Source: Clostridiaceae bacterium
GTDB lineage: Bacteria; Bacillota; Clostridia; DSM-8532
Direction of reading: 5' to 3'
Assembly: GCA_012523705.1 (NCBI GenBank)
Contig: JAAYTU010000058.1
Coordinates: forward strand, 1-35,183
Length of the DNA stretch: 35,183 nt
Part shown: positions 16,992 to 25,822 of the stretch, piece by piece
Position numbering within the stretch: position 1 is the stretch's first letter
Layout of the letters: every line of letters starts with the position of its first letter
Notes under the pieces: model-generated
Seen by the model: the letters and a program-made list of their open reading frames with translations, nothing else
The model's database searches: none
Told to the model about the DNA's origin: nothing
Made by a program: the position numbers and the translations under genes

Positions 16992-17020
16992 TTGACTTTT
17001 AATATAATTATAGTTACAAT
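16992..17020 (+). promoter_or_regulatory. SigmaA-type promoter
   Basis: TTGACT-N17-TACAAT upstream of the zinc-ribbon gene. Confidence 0.6.
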
Positions 17021-17091
17021 TTTTATGAAACCATGCAGAATTTTCATGTCATTATTATTAATGGCCATTGAGGTCGAACTGGAGGGGTTAT

Positions 17092-17814
17092 ATGTATTGT
17101 AAGAATTGTGATCAGTCGTTTTCCGATGAACATGTTTTCTGTAACAACTGTGGTGCAAAACTTGAAGATATAGATGCTGCCACTGAAGCCCTATTGGAAA
17201 ATAATACCGAAGACAATGCTGTGGCAGACGTAAATACCGAGCCTCAGCCAGCAGCGGAGCAGGAAGCTGCAGAAACAAGACCTGAACCTGTGTTACAGCC
17301 TGAATCACAACCTGAACCACAGCCACAGCCCGTACCTAAAACAGAGCCTAAGCCAGAAAACACTATACCACAAGCTGTTGCACCGGAAGATTTCAAGAGT
17401 ACGGCACAATCAACCCAACCTGTTGCTGTTTCATCGGAACCAGTTGTTGATAAAAAGCAGAGCAAGACCGTATCCTTTATTACATGGCTTATTATTATTA
17501 TTATTAATATTATACCATTCACTGCAGGGGTCATATATACTGTGGGCTCCCTGGTTTCTCCCTTCTTCAATCTGGATAACATTACTGTCGAAGGACTTAT
17601 ACTGCCAGCGTTATCTTTAATCTATGTAGTTATGTTGTTTCTTTGGGCCTTTGGAAAGCCCAAAGCCCGTTCATTAAAGAATTATTCAAAGGCAACACTA
17701 ATAATGGCTGGTATTATTATAGTAGTTGGATTTGTTATATTCCTGTTATTGCGCGATTACATTCTTGATATTATTGAAAACCTTCCATCTATATATGGGG
17801 AATTTCCTTTCTAG
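17092..17814 (+). CDS. Zinc-ribbon domain membrane protein
   Basis: MYCKNCDQSFSDEHVFCNNCGAKL at the N-terminus, Pro/Glu/Gln-rich linker, C-terminal TM segments; start 17092 after ggagggg. Confidence 0.8.
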   Translation: MYCKNCDQSFSDEHVFCNNCGAKLEDIDAATEALLENNTEDNAVADVNTEPQPAAEQEAAETRPEPVLQPESQPEPQPQPVPKTEPKPENTIPQAVAPEDFKSTAQSTQPVAVSSEPVVDKKQSKTVSFITWLIIIIINIIPFTAGVIYTVGSLVSPFFNLDNITVEGLILPALSLIYVVMLFLWAFGKPKARSLKNYSKATLIMAGIIIVVGFVIFLLLRDYILDIIENLPSIYGEFPF

Positions 17815-17959
17815 GACGGCTATGTTTTTTTAAATAAGAATTGAATTATTTGATTGCCTCAAAAACTTTCCATTTGTTCTTGGGGCAATCTGCGTTTTTA
17901 TTGGTATTTTTAGCAAATGGAATCTCCCTCAAATATATCGTATTTTATCAAAATACTTA

Positions 17960-17988
17960 TGGACAAGTTTATTATACTATGGTAATAT
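17960..17988 (+). promoter_or_regulatory. SigmaA promoter of the pyr operon
   Basis: TGGACA-N17-TAATAT, about 30 nt upstream of the leader ORF. Confidence 0.6.
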
Positions 17989-18019
17989 AATTTGAAAATA
18001 ACTTTGAGAGGGAAGGAAC

Positions 18020-18142
18020 ATGGTGTACTTAATGGTGGAAAAACTAAAGACGAACTCTTTTAACAGGATTAACACCGGGTCACTTATTCCCTTTTCCATA
18101 ACAATTGAATCATTGCAAGTTAATTATTGCTTTTACAAATAG
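18020..18142 (+). CDS. Putative pyr-operon leader peptide, 40 aa
   Basis: MVYLMVEKLKTNSFNRINTGSLIPFSITIESLQVNYCFYK*; SD-like gagagggaagg upstream; stop codon TAG (then TAA) is inside the 5' arm of the terminator. Absent from the ORF track because it is short. Confidence 0.6.
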   Translation: MVYLMVEKLKTNSFNRINTGSLIPFSITIESLQVNYCFYK

Positions 18143-18168
18143 TAAGACAACGGTCTTACTATTTTTTT
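18138..18168 (+). terminator. Attenuator-type intrinsic terminator upstream of pyrB
   Basis: AATAGTAAGAC-AACG-GTCTTACTATT with continuous T-run (18162-18168). Confidence 0.88.
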
Positions 18169-18281
18169 ATGACCGGGGCTAATAATCCTGCTCCAAGAGT
18201 TTAAGAGTTCAACAAGAATTATTAAAAGCAATAAGAACTTTTTGAGGATACGAAAAGTAGTCATAGGGAGTGAAATAGATT

Positions 18282-19208
18282 ATGAAGCTTAGATCCAAGG
18301 ATTTACTGGGCTTATATCATCTTGGTGCTGATGAAATCAATTATATATTGGACACGGCCAAAGATATGAAGAAAATTGTTCTTAGCTCTATGAAGAAAGT
18401 AAACTATCTTCAGGGAAGGTCGGTAGTAAGCCTTTTTTATGAAAACAGCACACGCACGCGGGTATCCTTTGAACTGGCCGCCAAATACATGGGTGCCCAG
18501 GCAGTTAACGTTTCTGTAAATTCAAGCAGTGTAGCTAAAGGAGAAACCCTGATCGATACCGGTAAAACCCTTGATGCTATGGGTACTGACATTGTTATTA
18601 TGCGCCATAACCAGTCAGGCGCTCCTAATCTCCTCGCTAAAAATATAAAGGCATCAGTTATTAATGCAGGTGATGGCATGCACGAGCATCCCACCCAGGC
18701 ACTGCTTGATATGCTTACCATGATAGAGGAGTTTGGATCTTTAAAGGGACTTAAGGTAGCAATAATAGGTGACATCTATCATAGCCGCGTTGCCAGAAGT
18801 AATATTATCGGCCTGAATAAAATGGGTGCAAAGGTACAAATATATGCACCGTCTACCTTAATGCCGGTGGGAATTGAAGAGTTAGGAGTAAAGATTTGTC
18901 CAACTATAGAGGATGCAACTAAAGACTGTGATGTAGTAATGGCATTGAGAATTCAGCTCGAAAGGCAAAAGAACGCTTTGTTCCCCACCAGTAATGAATA
19001 TTCAAAATTCTTCGGATTAAATCCTGATAATATCAAGGGGACCAAAAAAAATGTTCTTTTTATGCACCCGGGACCTGTAAACAGAGGCCTGGAAATGACC
19101 TCCTCCTTAATTGATGCCGACAACTCTGTAATTAATAAGCAGGTTACCAATGGTGTAGCTGTGAGGATGGCATTGCTTTATTTGCTTATAGGGAGGGATG
19201 AGCTATGA
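18282..19208 (+). CDS. pyrB: Aspartate carbamoyltransferase catalytic chain
   Basis: FYENSTRTRVSFELAAKYMGA, HEHPTQALLDMLTM; heads the pyrimidine operon. Confidence 0.97.
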   Translation: MKLRSKDLLGLYHLGADEINYILDTAKDMKKIVLSSMKKVNYLQGRSVVSLFYENSTRTRVSFELAAKYMGAQAVNVSVNSSSVAKGETLIDTGKTLDAMGTDIVIMRHNQSGAPNLLAKNIKASVINAGDGMHEHPTQALLDMLTMIEEFGSLKGLKVAIIGDIYHSRVARSNIIGLNKMGAKVQIYAPSTLMPVGIEELGVKICPTIEDATKDCDVVMALRIQLERQKNALFPTSNEYSKFFGLNPDNIKGTKKNVLFMHPGPVNRGLEMTSSLIDADNSVINKQVTNGVAVRMALLYLLIGRDEL

Positions 19209-20491
19209 GAACTTTGATTATTAATGGCAAGGTGTTTTTAGATGGCCAAATTGAAGAGGGAATGAGCCTTCTTGTTGATGATGGTATTATTATCGATGCT
19301 CAGAAGGATATTAAATGGGAGGCAGATAGAATTATAGATGCCAAAGGTCTTTATGTTTTGCCTGGCCTTATAGACGCCCATTGCCATTTAAGGGATCCGG
19401 GCTTTGAATACAAGGAAGATATTGTAACCGGAACAAAAAGTGCTGCAAAAGGTGGTTTTACTTCAATTGCATGTATGCCCAACACCAGTCCGACCGTTGA
19501 TAACATAGGCATAGTAAGATATATCATTGAGAAAGCAAAAAAGGACGGATTTGTAAATGTATATCCTATTGGTGCAATTACCAAAGGCTTAGAGGGAAAA
19601 GAACTGTCAGAGATGGGTAGTATGAAGGAAGCCGGAATAGTCGCTGTTTCTGATGATGGGAAGCCTGTGATGAATGGCGATGTCATGAGAAAAGCCCTGA
19701 TTTACGCAGGACAATTTGGCTTGAGTGTGATATCCCATTGTGAGGATCTGAGCATTACTGACGGCGGAAGCATGAATGAGGGAGTTACCTCCACTATATT
19801 AGGATTAAGAGGTATCCCGGCATCCTCTGAGGATGTAATGGTAGCCAGAGAGGTTCTGCTTTCTGAGTATACCAAAGTTCCTGTTCATATTGCTCATGTA
19901 TCGACAAAGGCTTCGGTTGAGATTATCAGGCAGGCAAAGAAGCGTGGGATAAAGGTCACGGCTGAAACCTGTCCGCATTATTTCACATTGACCGAAAAGG
20001 CATGTCTGGACTATGACACGAATACAAAAATGAATCCTCCCCTAAGAACTCAAGTTGATCTTGAAGCAGTTATTGAGGGCCTCAGGGACGATACAATAGA
20101 TATAATTGCAACCGATCATGCCCCTCATCACCGTGATGAAAAAAATGTTGAGTTTGAAAGGGCTGCAAATGGTATAGTAGGCTTTGAGACGGCTTTATCA
20201 CTTAGCTATACCAATTTGGTGGAAGCGGGATACTTAAGCTTTTCACAAATGCTCCATAAGCTTACTGTTAATCCTGCAAAAATGTTAAAATTGGATAAGG
20301 GTGTCTTAAAATGCGGTAAATCAGCGGATTTAATTCTGGTTGATTTTGATAATGAGTATACTGTGGATGTCTCAAAATTTGCGTCAAAGAGTAAGAATTC
20401 CCCCTTTGATGGCTTTAAAGTGAAGGGAAGGGTTTTGCTTACCATGGTTGGCGGCAAAATCTCTTATTCTGATGAAGGCTTTACACTGTAA
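19205..20491 (+). CDS. pyrC: Dihydroorotase
   Basis: GLIDAHCHLRDPGFEYKED, ATDHAPHH; 4-nt ATGA overlap with pyrB. Confidence 0.97.
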   Translation: MRTLIINGKVFLDGQIEEGMSLLVDDGIIIDAQKDIKWEADRIIDAKGLYVLPGLIDAHCHLRDPGFEYKEDIVTGTKSAAKGGFTSIACMPNTSPTVDNIGIVRYIIEKAKKDGFVNVYPIGAITKGLEGKELSEMGSMKEAGIVAVSDDGKPVMNGDVMRKALIYAGQFGLSVISHCEDLSITDGGSMNEGVTSTILGLRGIPASSEDVMVAREVLLSEYTKVPVHIAHVSTKASVEIIRQAKKRGIKVTAETCPHYFTLTEKACLDYDTNTKMNPPLRTQVDLEAVIEGLRDDTIDIIATDHAPHHRDEKNVEFERAANGIVGFETALSLSYTNLVEAGYLSFSQMLHKLTVNPAKMLKLDKGVLKCGKSADLILVDFDNEYTVDVSKFASKSKNSPFDGFKVKGRVLLTMVGGKISYSDEGFTL

Positions 20492-20554: not shown

Positions 20555-21496
20555 ATGAACTTTTCAGACAAGCTTACAGAATTAATAAAACAGAAAAACA
20601 ACCCTTCGGTACTTGGTCTGGATCCAAAGCTTGAGTATATCCCCGAGTCTATAAAGAATAAGTATTTCAATAATTATGATGCACCGGGAAAAGCAGTGGC
20701 CGGCAGTATTGTTGAATTTAACAAAAGACTCATAGATGCATTATATGATATAATTCCAGCAGTAAAGCCTCAGCTTGCTTATTACGAAATGTATGGCATT
20801 GATGGAATTAATGCCTTTTATGAAACAGTAGCTTATGCTAAAGAAAAGGGTCTTTTAGTTATAGCCGATGGTAAACGGAATGATATTGGCACAACTGCAC
20901 AGGCATATGCTAAAGCTTATCTTGGAAAAACAGATATTAATGATAGAAATATTGAAGCCTTTGGAGCCGATGCTCTTACCGTAAATGCCTATCTGGGCAT
21001 AGATGGAGTCAAGCCATTTATCGAGGAATGTGAAAAGGATGCGAAGGGCATATTCGTGCTAGTAAAAACATCAAACCCCTCATCAGGCCAACTTCAGGAT
21101 CTGGTTCTACAGGATGGGCGTACTATCTATGAGGCAATGGCTGATTTGGTAAATGAATGGGGAAGTACAACCCTTGGCCAATGCGGCTATTCTTCTGTAG
21201 GTGCAGTGGTGGGGGCAACATATCCTACGCAGCTTGAAGAAATGAGAAAGCGCATGGATAAAGCCTGGATTTTAGTGCCCGGATACGGAGCCCAGGGTGG
21301 AACAGCCAGGGATGTAGCCAGGGCCTTTGATAAGGATGGCCTGGGAGCCATTATAAATGCGTCAAGAAGTCTTATGTGTGCATACAATCTGGAGAATTGG
21401 AAAGCAAAGTATTCAAAAGAGCAGTTTGCAGAAGCTGCAAGGAGTGAAGCAGAGCGTATGCGGGATGATATAAATAAGGAAAGGGAATCTTTATGA
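20555..21496 (+). CDS. pyrF: Orotidine 5'-phosphate decarboxylase, type 2 (long form)
   Basis: SVLGLDPKLEYIP, VIADGKRNDIGTTAQAYAKAYLG, LVPGYGAQGG; aggagg SD. Confidence 0.96.
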   Translation: MNFSDKLTELIKQKNNPSVLGLDPKLEYIPESIKNKYFNNYDAPGKAVAGSIVEFNKRLIDALYDIIPAVKPQLAYYEMYGIDGINAFYETVAYAKEKGLLVIADGKRNDIGTTAQAYAKAYLGKTDINDRNIEAFGADALTVNAYLGIDGVKPFIEECEKDAKGIFVLVKTSNPSSGQLQDLVLQDGRTIYEAMADLVNEWGSTTLGQCGYSSVGAVVGATYPTQLEEMRKRMDKAWILVPGYGAQGGTARDVARAFDKDGLGAIINASRSLMCAYNLENWKAKYSKEQFAEAARSEAERMRDDINKERESL

Positions 21497-22566
21497 AGGC
21501 TGTTTTAGCGTTGGAAGATGGAACCATGTTCCATGGTGAGTCAATAGGTGCACAAGGTACATGCATTGGAGAGATTGTGTTTAGTACAGGAATGACCGGC
21601 TATCAGGAGGTTTTATCCGACCCCTCATTTGTGGGGCAACTGGTGGCTCTGACCTATCCCATAGTTGGAAACTACGGCGTAAATCCCGAGAACACGGAAT
21701 CAGACAAAATACATCTTAAGGGCTTTATAGTCAGAGAGCTGTGTAATGAACCGAGCAATTTTAGATGCCAGGGAACACTTGATGAATATCTCAAAAAGAA
21801 TAGTATTATCGGCATTCAGGGGATTGATACCAGGGCCTTAACCAGAATACTCAGAGATAAGGGTACAATGAACGGGATTATTTCAACCCAATCTGATTTT
21901 AAATTAGAGGACTGGTTTGATAAGGTTAAGTCTCATAAGCTTGTTAATCCTGTTGATATGGTCACATCAAAAGAAGTCAAGCATTATGAAGGAGCGGGAA
22001 AAAAGGTTGCAATAATTGACTATGGTCTAAAAAAGAGCATAGTAAAATGCTTACAAAAGCGTGATTGCGATATATATGTTTTCCCTGCAGACACCGTAGC
22101 AGATGATATTTTAGCTGTAAATCCCAATGGAATAGTATTGTCAAATGGCCCAGGAAACCCTGAGGACTGTAGTAAACAGGTGGAAGTAATAAAGGGACTG
22201 TTGGGGAAGAAACCGATATTAGGAATATGCTTAGGTCATCTGTTGGCTGCCCGTGCCTATGGAGCCGATACAGTTAAGATGAAGCACGGTCATCACGGCG
22301 GGAATTATCCTGTTAAGGATATTATAAAGGACAGAACATATATAACATCACAGGGACATGGCTACGTTGTGGCTCCGGATTCACTGTATTTAAGCAAAGC
22401 AGAAATAAGCCATGTTAATATTAATGATAGAACGGTTGAGGGAATTAAGTATTTGGATACCCCCACTATAACTGTTCAATTCCACCCTGAGGCTTCTCCC
22501 GGTCCAAATGATACAGAATTTATATTTGACAGGTTTATCGCTCTTATGAATGAAGATTCTCTTTAA
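21493..22566 (+). CDS. carA: Carbamoyl-phosphate synthase small subunit
   Basis: [55 protein letters not shown] overlap with pyrF. Confidence 0.96.
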
Positions 22567-22600
22567 TTTAGTTTTCACCCAATCAGGAGGTTCAAAAGTA

Positions 22601-25600
22601 ATGCCCAGAAGACAAGATATAAAACGAGTATTGGTTATAGGCTCAGGGCCTATTGTAATAGGACAAGCAGCGGAGTTTGATTATGCCGGAACCCAGGCAT
22701 GTCAGGCTCTGAAGGAGGAAGGAATAGAGACTGTTCTTATTAACAGCAATCCAGCCACTATTATGACCGATCCCGAAATTGCGGATAAGGTGTATATAGA
22801 ACCTCTTAAAGCTGAAATTATTAAGAAGATTATACTAAAGGAAAGGCCAGATAGCATCCTGCCAACATTAGGCGGTCAAACGGGTTTGAACCTGGCAGTA
22901 GAATTGGCTGAGTCAGGCTTTCTGGAGCAGGAAGGCGTAGAACTGTTAGGTACAAAGGTTGATGCCATACAAATGGCAGAAGACCGTCAATCCTTCAAAG
23001 ATACCATGGAATCTATAGGTGAACCCTGTATTCCCAGTAAGGTGGTTAATACCCTACAGGACGCACTGGATTTTACTGAGGAAATCGGTTATCCAGTCGT
23101 GGTAAGGCCTGCCTACACCTTAGGGGGAACCGGTGGCGGTATTGCATATAATGAGGAGCAGCTAAGGGAGATTGGCTCAAATGGCCTTCGTTTAAGCCGG
23201 GTACATCAGGTTTTGATAGAAAAGTGTATAGCGGGCTGGAAGGAAATCGAATTCGAGGTTATGGGTGATTCTAAGGGAAACGTAATCACCATATGCAGCA
23301 TGGAGAACATTGATCCTGTGGGTGTTCATACAGGGGACAGTATTGTTGTTGCCCCTACACAGACCTTAGGTGAAAAGGAATACCAGATGCTAAGATCCGC
23401 TGCCTTAAATATTATTACAGCCTTGAAAATTGAAGGAGGGTGCAATTGTCAGTTTGCCCTTCATCCCAATAGCTTTGAATACGCTGTTATTGAGGTAAAT
23501 CCCCGCTTAAGCCGTTCATCAGCCTTAGCGTCTAAAGCAACCGGCTATCCTATAGCCCGGGTAGCAACAAAGATAGCAATAGGCTATGGACTTGATGAGA
23601 TCAAGAATGCTGTAACAGGAAAGACCTATGCATGTTTCGAGCCAGCTCTCGACTACTGTGTGGTTAAGATACCCAAATGGCCCTTTGACAAATTTGTCAA
23701 GGCTAAGCGTACCCTTGGAACACAGATGAAAGCTACAGGCGAGGTTATGGCTATAAGTAACAGCTTTGAAGGAGCACTGGTTAAGGCTCTTCGCTCCCTG
23801 GAGCTTGGAATTAAAACATTAGAGACACCACATTTTAAAGAGATGGAGGATGCAGTCCTCAGAAAGGCGCTGCACGACATAGATGATAACCGTCTGCTGG
23901 TAATAGCAGAGGCTATCAGAAGGGGTATTACCCTTGAGGATATTAATGAAATAACAGAAATTGATATGTGGTTCCTCAATAAGTTCAGAAATATTGTCAG
24001 AATGGAGGAACACTTAAAAACACTCGGTTTAGATACCCTTGATAAAGAAACACTTCTAAAGTGTAAGAAGATGGCCTTTTTAGATGAGGTAATAGGTAAG
24101 TACGTAAAGGCCTCTAAAAAGAACATTAAGGAGCTTAGAATCAAATGGGGGATAAGACCTTCATATAAGATGGTTGACACCTGTGCGGCAGAATTTGAGG
24201 CAGAGACGCCATATTATTACTCAACATATGATGAATACTCGGAGTCAGTGCCAACCAATAAAAAGAAAGTTATAGTATTAGGCTCAGGACCCATCCGTAT
24301 AGGCCAGGGAATAGAGTTTGACTATTGCTCGGTACACTGTGTCTGGGGACTTAAGGATGAGGGATATGAGACTATTATAATTAACAACAATCCTGAGACG
24401 GTATCCACCGACTTTGATACATCAGACAGACTCTATTTTGAACCCTTAACCCCTGAGGATGTTGAGGAGATTATTGAGCTTGAGAAGCCTGAAGGAGTAA
24501 TTGCTCAGTTCGGTGGACAAACCGCTATTAAGCTTACCAATCCTTTGAATGATGCTGGTGTTAATATTTTTGGCACAGCAGCTAAGAATGTTGATGCAGC
24601 AGAGGACAAGGAGAAATTTGACGCTATCCTTGAAGAACTCAAAATACCCAGACCTAAAGGAACCACCATCAGAACGCTTGACGAAGCCATAGAGGCTGCT
24701 AATAGCCTCGGATATCCTGTTCTGGTCCGTCCATCCTATGTTCTTGGTGGTAAGGGCATGGAGATTGCGTATAACGATAAGGATATAGTGGAATTCATGG
24801 AGATTATTAATCGCGAGGAGCAGGAGCACCCCATTCTTATTGACAAATATCTTATGGGAACAGAGCTTGAGGTAGACGCAATTTGCGATGGAGAAAACAT
24901 ATTTATCCCCGGTATTATGGAGCACCTGGAGAGAGCAGGAGTCCACTCAGGTGACAGTATTTCCATGTATCCGCCTCAGAATCTTTCCTTTAAAATTAAA
25001 GAGAAAATAATTAATTATACTGAAAAATTAGCAAAGGCCCTTGAGGTAGTGGGTATAGTTAATATCCAATATGTTTTATTCAATGATGAAATATATGTAA
25101 TAGAGGTTAATCCACGCTCTAGTCGCACCGTGCCTTATATCAGCAAGGTGACGGGGATTCCTCTGGTTAAAATGGCAACACGTATTATGATGGGTAGAAA
25201 GCTATCGGATTTCCCCTATGGAACAGGCCTGTACAATGAAAGAGATTTTGTGGCAGTAAAGGTTCCTGTCTTCTCCTTTGAAAAACTGCATGATGTTGAT
25301 ACAGGCTTGGGCCCTGAGATGAAGTCAACGGGAGAGGTGTTGGGAGTTGCCAGAAATCTTCATGAGGCTACATTAAAAGGTCTTGTGGCATCAGGTTTTG
25401 AATTTCCGGAGCCGGGCAGTGGAATCCTCTTTACTGTGAGGGATGCTGATAAACCAGAGCTAATAGATTTAGCAGACGGATTCGAAAGATTAGGTTATAC
25501 CCTGTATGCTACAGGTAAGACGGCTCTTTATCTGAATCAGCATGCAATAGCCACAAACAGTGTTAAAAAGCTCGATGAGGGATCTCCTAATATTATAGAT

Positions 25601-25822
25601 CTTATGGAGCAAGGGAAGATAAAGCTTATAGTAAACACTCCTACCAAGGGAAGAGACTCCCACAGGGATGGCTTCAGAATAAGGAGAAAGGCTGTAGAAA
25701 GCTCAATTCCTTGCATAACCAGTATGGATACGGCATATGCAGTGTTACACTGCCTTAAGACGGGGAAGAAGTCGGAGGATCTTGATATTATAAACATCAG
25801 CGATTTAAGAGCTGAAAAATGA
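22601..25822 (+). CDS. carB: Carbamoyl-phosphate synthase large subunit
   Basis: [37 protein letters not shown]; two ATP-grasp halves; start at 22601 after aggagg (track begins at 22550). Confidence 0.97.

Follow-up and report, generated by a model that had tools for sequence, protein, structure and literature searches.

The stretch of DNA analysed here, which is 35,183 nucleotides long and is called the window in the following, is contig G000:C24 of a Clostridiaceae genome of 1.94 Mb that is 99.7% complete, and it carries a pyrimidine operon in the order pyrB-pyrC-pyrF-carA-carB behind a short leader region (Table 1). The original prediction had placed a promoter, a Shine-Dalgarno (SD) sequence, a 40-codon open reading frame (ORF) and a terminator before pyrB, and all of them are found exactly where it had placed them. 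In fact the stop codon TAG of the ORF (18140-18142) does lie inside the 5' arm of the terminator hairpin (18137-18164) as had been claimed, and the U-rich tracts said to occupy the last part of the ORF are located at 18087-18097 and 18120-18136. As for the genes behind the leader, the carB profile match starts at residue 18, and the real start of this gene is probably 22601. The pyrE model TIGR00336 finds nothing above its cut-off in G000, G009, G019 and G020, and in these four genomes the orotate phosphoribosyltransferase may belong to a different family.

Table 1. Leader elements and pyr genes of the window, with the evidence for each
Feature	Position	Strand	Evidence and remarks
Promoter TGGACA-N17-TAATAT	17960..17988	+	-35 at 17960-17965, -10 at 17983-17988, TG ahead of the -10; promoter scan 9/12
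Purine-rich Shine-Dalgarno of the leader ORF, GAGAGGGAAGG	18006..18016	+	SD-like sequence also ahead of the start in relatives
Leader ORF, 40 codons + TAG, MVYLMVEKLKTNSFNRINTGSLIPFSITIESLQVNYCFYK	18020..18142	+	Start ATG 18020; stop TAG 18140-18142, next in-frame codon TAA 18143-18145; open to the hairpin in 30/30 relatives; peptide unconserved
Pyrimidine-rich tract 1, TTCCCTTTTCC	18087..18097	+	Proposed RNA polymerase slow-down site; long pyrimidine run in 26/30
U-rich tract 2, TTAATTATTGCTTTTAC, adjoining the hairpin	18120..18136	+	Kept among close relatives; T-runs shortly before the hairpin in most loci
Intrinsic terminator AAATAGTAAGAC-AACG-GTCTTACTATTT + T-run	18137..18168	+	Terminator scan, covariation; 12 pairs (18137-18164), 4-nt loop; holds the in-frame tandem stop UAG-UAA
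pyrB, aspartate carbamoyltransferase catalytic subunit	18282..19208	+	NCBIfam NF002032, 393 bits vs cut-off 263
pyrC, dihydroorotase	19205..20491	+	NCBIfam TIGR00857, 418.6 bits, above cut-off
pyrF, OMP decarboxylase	20555..21496	+	NCBIfam TIGR02127, 301.7 bits, above cut-off
carA (pyrAA)	21493..22566	+	NCBIfam NF009475, 480.7 bits, above cut-off
carB (pyrAB)	22550..25822	+	NCBIfam NF003671, 1559 bits, above cut-off

The window ORF by itself is weak evidence and is not significant in one genome, a leader-length open frame being present in 6.6% of dinucleotide shuffles; its significance arises because it is conserved across relatives. At the gathering level of Rfam only two tRNAs match in the whole window, with no T-box or riboswitch match, and 17800-18400, when scanned permissively, yields sub-threshold matches only, with no PyrR element among them. 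To compare the relatives, 33 genomes of the order were collected, pyrB orthologues were found in 30 of them, and the upstream DNA of all 30 was compared; these loci span 8 genera (g1-g8) in 2 families of heat-loving and digester Clostridia, including Thermoclostridium caenicola DSM 19027 and many Clostridiaceae MAGs. A promoter of the form T[GA]GAC[AG]-N17/18-TAnnnT lies 24-36 nt ahead of the leader start in all 30, and the leader ORF is open up to at most 6 nt from the hairpin in all 30 as well, whereas of the remaining frames one is open in none of them and the other in 6. The shuffle probability of the open frame varies from 0.01 to 0.6 per locus, and the highest value of each genus multiplied over the 8 genera gives 1.6e-8. 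Moreover the length from start to hairpin ranges from 95 to 147 nt with differences that are not always multiples of 3, and the ORF is nonetheless open throughout. ORF frame, stop/hairpin geometry and U-rich tract are thus kept across the 8 genera, as the original prediction required of related pyrB 5' regions, and they recur in further families. The geometry with the stop in the hairpin is upheld in 25 of the 30 loci, where the leader stop falls at -5 to +1, counted from the A of the ATAG in the hairpin, but not in the other five (L004, L022-L025), where the frame has no stop there and runs through the hairpin, like that of E. coli PyrL; the tandem UAG-UAA at the base of the 5' arm is in frame in about three quarters of the loci. 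The terminator scan finds no second terminator in 17000-19500, the promoter scan finds no promoter-like site on the + strand of 18165-18282, and in many relatives the gap from terminator to pyrB is down to 36-60 nt, which leaves little space for a second promoter, so that the operon would be reached via readthrough and expression of pyrB would require it.

The leader peptides, in contrast to the frame that encodes them, differ strongly from genus to genus; their alignment holds no in-frame conserved codon, amino acid or regulatory-codon run, and in gap-free leader pairs each of the three codon positions takes roughly the same share of the substitutions. A pyrimidine run of at least 10 is present in 26 of the 30 leaders with a median start 49 nt ahead of the hairpin, with variants TTTTCCCTT, TTTTCTCTTTC and TTTCCTTTTTT, and it lies in frame 0, 1 or 2 of the ORF by lineage; for example, near-identical DNA gives VFPF in g2 and RISFF in g4. 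Besides this tract near -49 there are T-runs near -10 from the hairpin, and the T content is greater in the 3' half of the ORF and rises toward the hairpin in all 30. Given its composition, a single locus is only mildly unusual in having a long pyrimidine run (median shuffle P of about 0.05 in g1, g2 and g4), and the leaders show no enrichment of the NusG pause motif TTNTTT (44 against 33.7 expected, sd 6.2). Since the substitutions are about even and the tract occurs in all three frames, conservation concerns the act of translation and the nucleotides but not the peptide, and the alignments indicate that selection maintains a frame open as far as the hairpin, together with a pyrimidine-rich tract, rather than a peptide product. 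This is the pattern that a ribosome-coupled attenuation by polymerase speed needs, and it is unlike that of an amino-acid sensor or a small-protein gene.

The promoter, the ORF, the tract and the hairpin are directly established, as are their conservation and the absence of PyrR from the window's own genome; together they probably make up a ribosome-coupled, UTP-responsive transcription attenuator of pyrB-C-F-carA-B that is PyrL-like. We infer UTP as the signal, the translation of the leader, the pausing and the readthrough. Transcription would begin at the conserved promoter and a ribosome would load onto the leader ORF. When UTP is plentiful, the polymerase would pass quickly through the U/C-rich tracts and be at the terminator ahead of the ribosome, whereupon the hairpin would fold and transcription stop before pyrB; when UTP is scarce, the polymerase would lose speed in the tracts, which lie about 50 nt and about 10 nt ahead of the hairpin, the ribosome would catch up, and while parked at the tandem UAG-UAA it would cover the 5' arm of the hairpin, letting the polymerase continue into pyrB. 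The leader peptide itself would have no role. Studies in E. coli report that a ribosome at a stop codon a few nucleotides ahead of a hairpin represses the terminator and that translation of the pyrBI leader is coupled through polymerase pauses (PMC4824070), and also that preventing termination needs tight coupling across PyrL (PMC5021804). However, B. subtilis is reported to show runaway transcription, and Bacillus-type Firmicutes to have transcription going ahead of translation with terminators right after stop codons (PMC7858274), so the stop-in-hairpin geometry alone would be no proof of coupling there. By a crude terminator finder, the stop-to-terminator distances of a complete genome of the family are not separable from those of E. 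coli. A tract with two jobs, which would slow the polymerase at low UTP and, once transcribed, pair with the purine-rich SD of the leader and close it, is a possibility that we hold only tentatively and rather doubt; the pause of the polymerase would then keep the initiation window open and act as a timer, by which a lineage whose transcription normally outruns translation would couple the two only on demand. Such an SD-tract pairing is predicted in four genera (genus permutation p 0.01; within-genus p 0.72 in g1 and 0.07 in g7), and as a regulatory helix it is suggestive only.

A translation-coupled attenuator would consist of identical parts if it read the speed or supply of ribosomes, that is amino acids or the general translation rate, in place of UTP, and the leader peptide is indeed rich in Phe, Lys and Ile; but nothing in the peptide or its codons is conserved in frame, no alternative antiterminator was established across the loci, and the element that is conserved is the U/C-rich tract as nucleotides, hence we regard this reading as unlikely. 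Still less can be said for an ordinary small-protein gene with a terminator of its own and with pyrB served by leaky readthrough. Terminators of Firmicutes do often stand close behind stop codons (PMC7858274), yet here the peptide is unconserved and has no Pfam match, the frame of the tract drifts, and the hairpin covaries and occurs only at pyrB, all of which makes this explanation quite improbable. In fact the pattern search for the hairpin sequence TAGTAAG...CTTACTATTT in the order's genomes returns a single site per genome, always at pyrB, against zero sites for reversed control patterns in the same genomes, and a stricter form, searched in 290 genomes of the class, precedes pyrB in G140, G205 and G281 and occurs at other sites in two genomes. 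The two inner pairs of the hairpin vary with compensation, with 98.4% of cells pairing and a covariation of 0.254 against 0.127 (0 of 500 shuffles). A covariance model of the hairpin run over 390 genomes gave zero matches and missed the window's own hairpin too, hence it is uninformative.

The outer nine pairs of the hairpin, which include the AUAGUAAG arm, are nearly invariant even where the UAG-UAA is out of frame, and this is beyond the needs of a bare terminator. Such invariance would suit an antiterminator dependent on a protein or a small RNA and acting on this arm or on the pyrimidine tract; the tandem UAG-UAA and the pairing account for part of it, however, and a leader segment complementary to the arm occurs in few loci only, so that we consider a factor of this kind very improbable. 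Among candidate structures, an antiterminator made from the leader start (CUUACUAU in L002 and L007) and the hairpin arm is good in only a few of the 30 loci, and it was rejected. Three genomes have neither pyrB nor the leader hairpin: G001 and G011, which are near-complete members of the genus, and G015, an incomplete relative.

Returning to the UTP-responsive attenuator, its relation to PyrR can be followed from genome to genome. A genome search for pyrR finds no PyrR above the cut-off in the window's 99.7% complete genome (best 29.4 bits against the cut-off of 138 of the NCBIfam model), and the identical search scores about 250 bits in most sister species of the genus; in the genera g2-g8 PyrR is likewise below the cut-off. 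The PyrR element RF00515 is absent from the leader even in a permissive scan and from the own genome under stricter filters, in line with the original prediction, which had found no motif like a PyrR-binding loop here. The broader claim, that this lineage uses PyrL-like control instead of PyrR, is supported for the own genome and g2-g8, which are without PyrR above the cut-off, but not for the genus as a whole, most members of which retain PyrR for a separate unit. In the sister species L153, L154 and L158 this unit contains PyrR and its RNA element followed by a uracil-permease-like gene, named by its sequence and not from a family search, and it is not at pyrB; in these species separate regulators seem to govern de novo synthesis and salvage. 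That a PyrR-controlled attenuator with an overlooked binding loop operates at pyrB is hardly credible, although outgroup Clostridia carry PyrR elements in their pyr operons, since the own genome and g2-g8 lack PyrR above the cut-off, neither the leader nor the own genome has RF00515, and where the genus retains PyrR the element is at pyrR and the uracil-permease-like gene. In those outgroups PyrR elements precede pyrR, and some outgroups have one in the interval from pyrR to pyrB. For instance, in Acetivibrio alkalicellulosi L077 and the MAGs L048, L050 and L052 the PyrR element and pyrR come first, then a leader ORF with the same ATAGTAAGG hairpin, and then pyrB, and in G035 the PyrR element is directly between pyrR and pyrB. 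It appears from these arrangements that the leader attenuator originated alongside PyrR and, in the own genome and g2-g8, ended up as the one pyr control that is visible, the direction of change being a matter of inference.

Compared with known systems, the Clostridia leader is most similar to E. coli pyrBI/PyrL, with which it shares an SD-led leader ORF of about 40 codons running into an intrinsic terminator before pyrB and a U/C-rich tract upstream of the hairpin. The two differ in several respects. In the control locus of E. coli MG1655 the start-to-hairpin distance is 90 nt and there is a single tract, TTTTTCTTCCC, at -30, as against about -49 in Clostridia; the PyrL stop is 42 nt past the hairpin start, whereas Clostridia usually have the tandem UAG-UAA inside the 5' arm; and the Clostridia operon is pyrB-C-F-carA-B in a Gram-positive host. 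Moreover the Pfam family PF08052 (PyrBI_leader) matches none of 6 Clostridia leaders, while E. coli PyrL matches at 3.1e-34, and because of this lack of a match the Clostridia leader appears to have evolved independently of PyrL, as a case of convergence. PyrR-dependent attenuation of the Bacillus type (RF00515) likewise puts a terminator ahead of pyr genes of the same pathway, but here the own genome is without PyrR and its element and the terminator is overlapped by an ORF. The his and trp amino-acid leader attenuators, including the histidine leaders in Bacilli (PMC2965389), combine a leader ORF with a terminator too, but here there is no regulatory codon run, no conserved alternative hairpin is established, and the terminator itself is overlapped by the ORF.

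In textbooks, the pyr genes of enterobacteria are controlled by UTP-sensing attenuation with a leader peptide, and those of Firmicutes by PyrR. Searches of the open-access literature returned no description of a pyrL-like leader from Clostridia, and a survey of 2010 stated that leader-peptide systems had been demonstrated in Proteobacteria and Actinobacteria only, with the histidine leaders in Bacilli as the exception (PMC2965389). A conserved PyrL-like attenuator of apparently independent origin in Clostridia, the cultured Thermoclostridium among them, would point to a replaceable regulatory layer, with the PyrR element only, both, or the leader only. It is of interest also because transcription in Firmicutes is considered to run ahead of translation, and it offers a natural test of whether the two can couple in Gram-positives thought to run them apart. 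Under runaway transcription the leader ribosome would be too late for a terminator about 100 nt downstream unless the polymerase waits, and a conserved pyr attenuator of this build predicts such waiting at low UTP in Clostridia.

In the E. coli rph-pyrE attenuator, translation ending near the terminator controls readthrough, and the translated part is a full gene, whereas the Clostridia use a dedicated leader. One locus, L072 (MAG UBA4821), is nearer to the rph-pyrE type: the stop of pyrR is 7 nt ahead of a ATAGTAAGG...CCTTACTAT terminator before pyrB with no separate leader ORF, and by analogy the translation of pyrR itself may play the leader's part there, like that of rph for pyrE.
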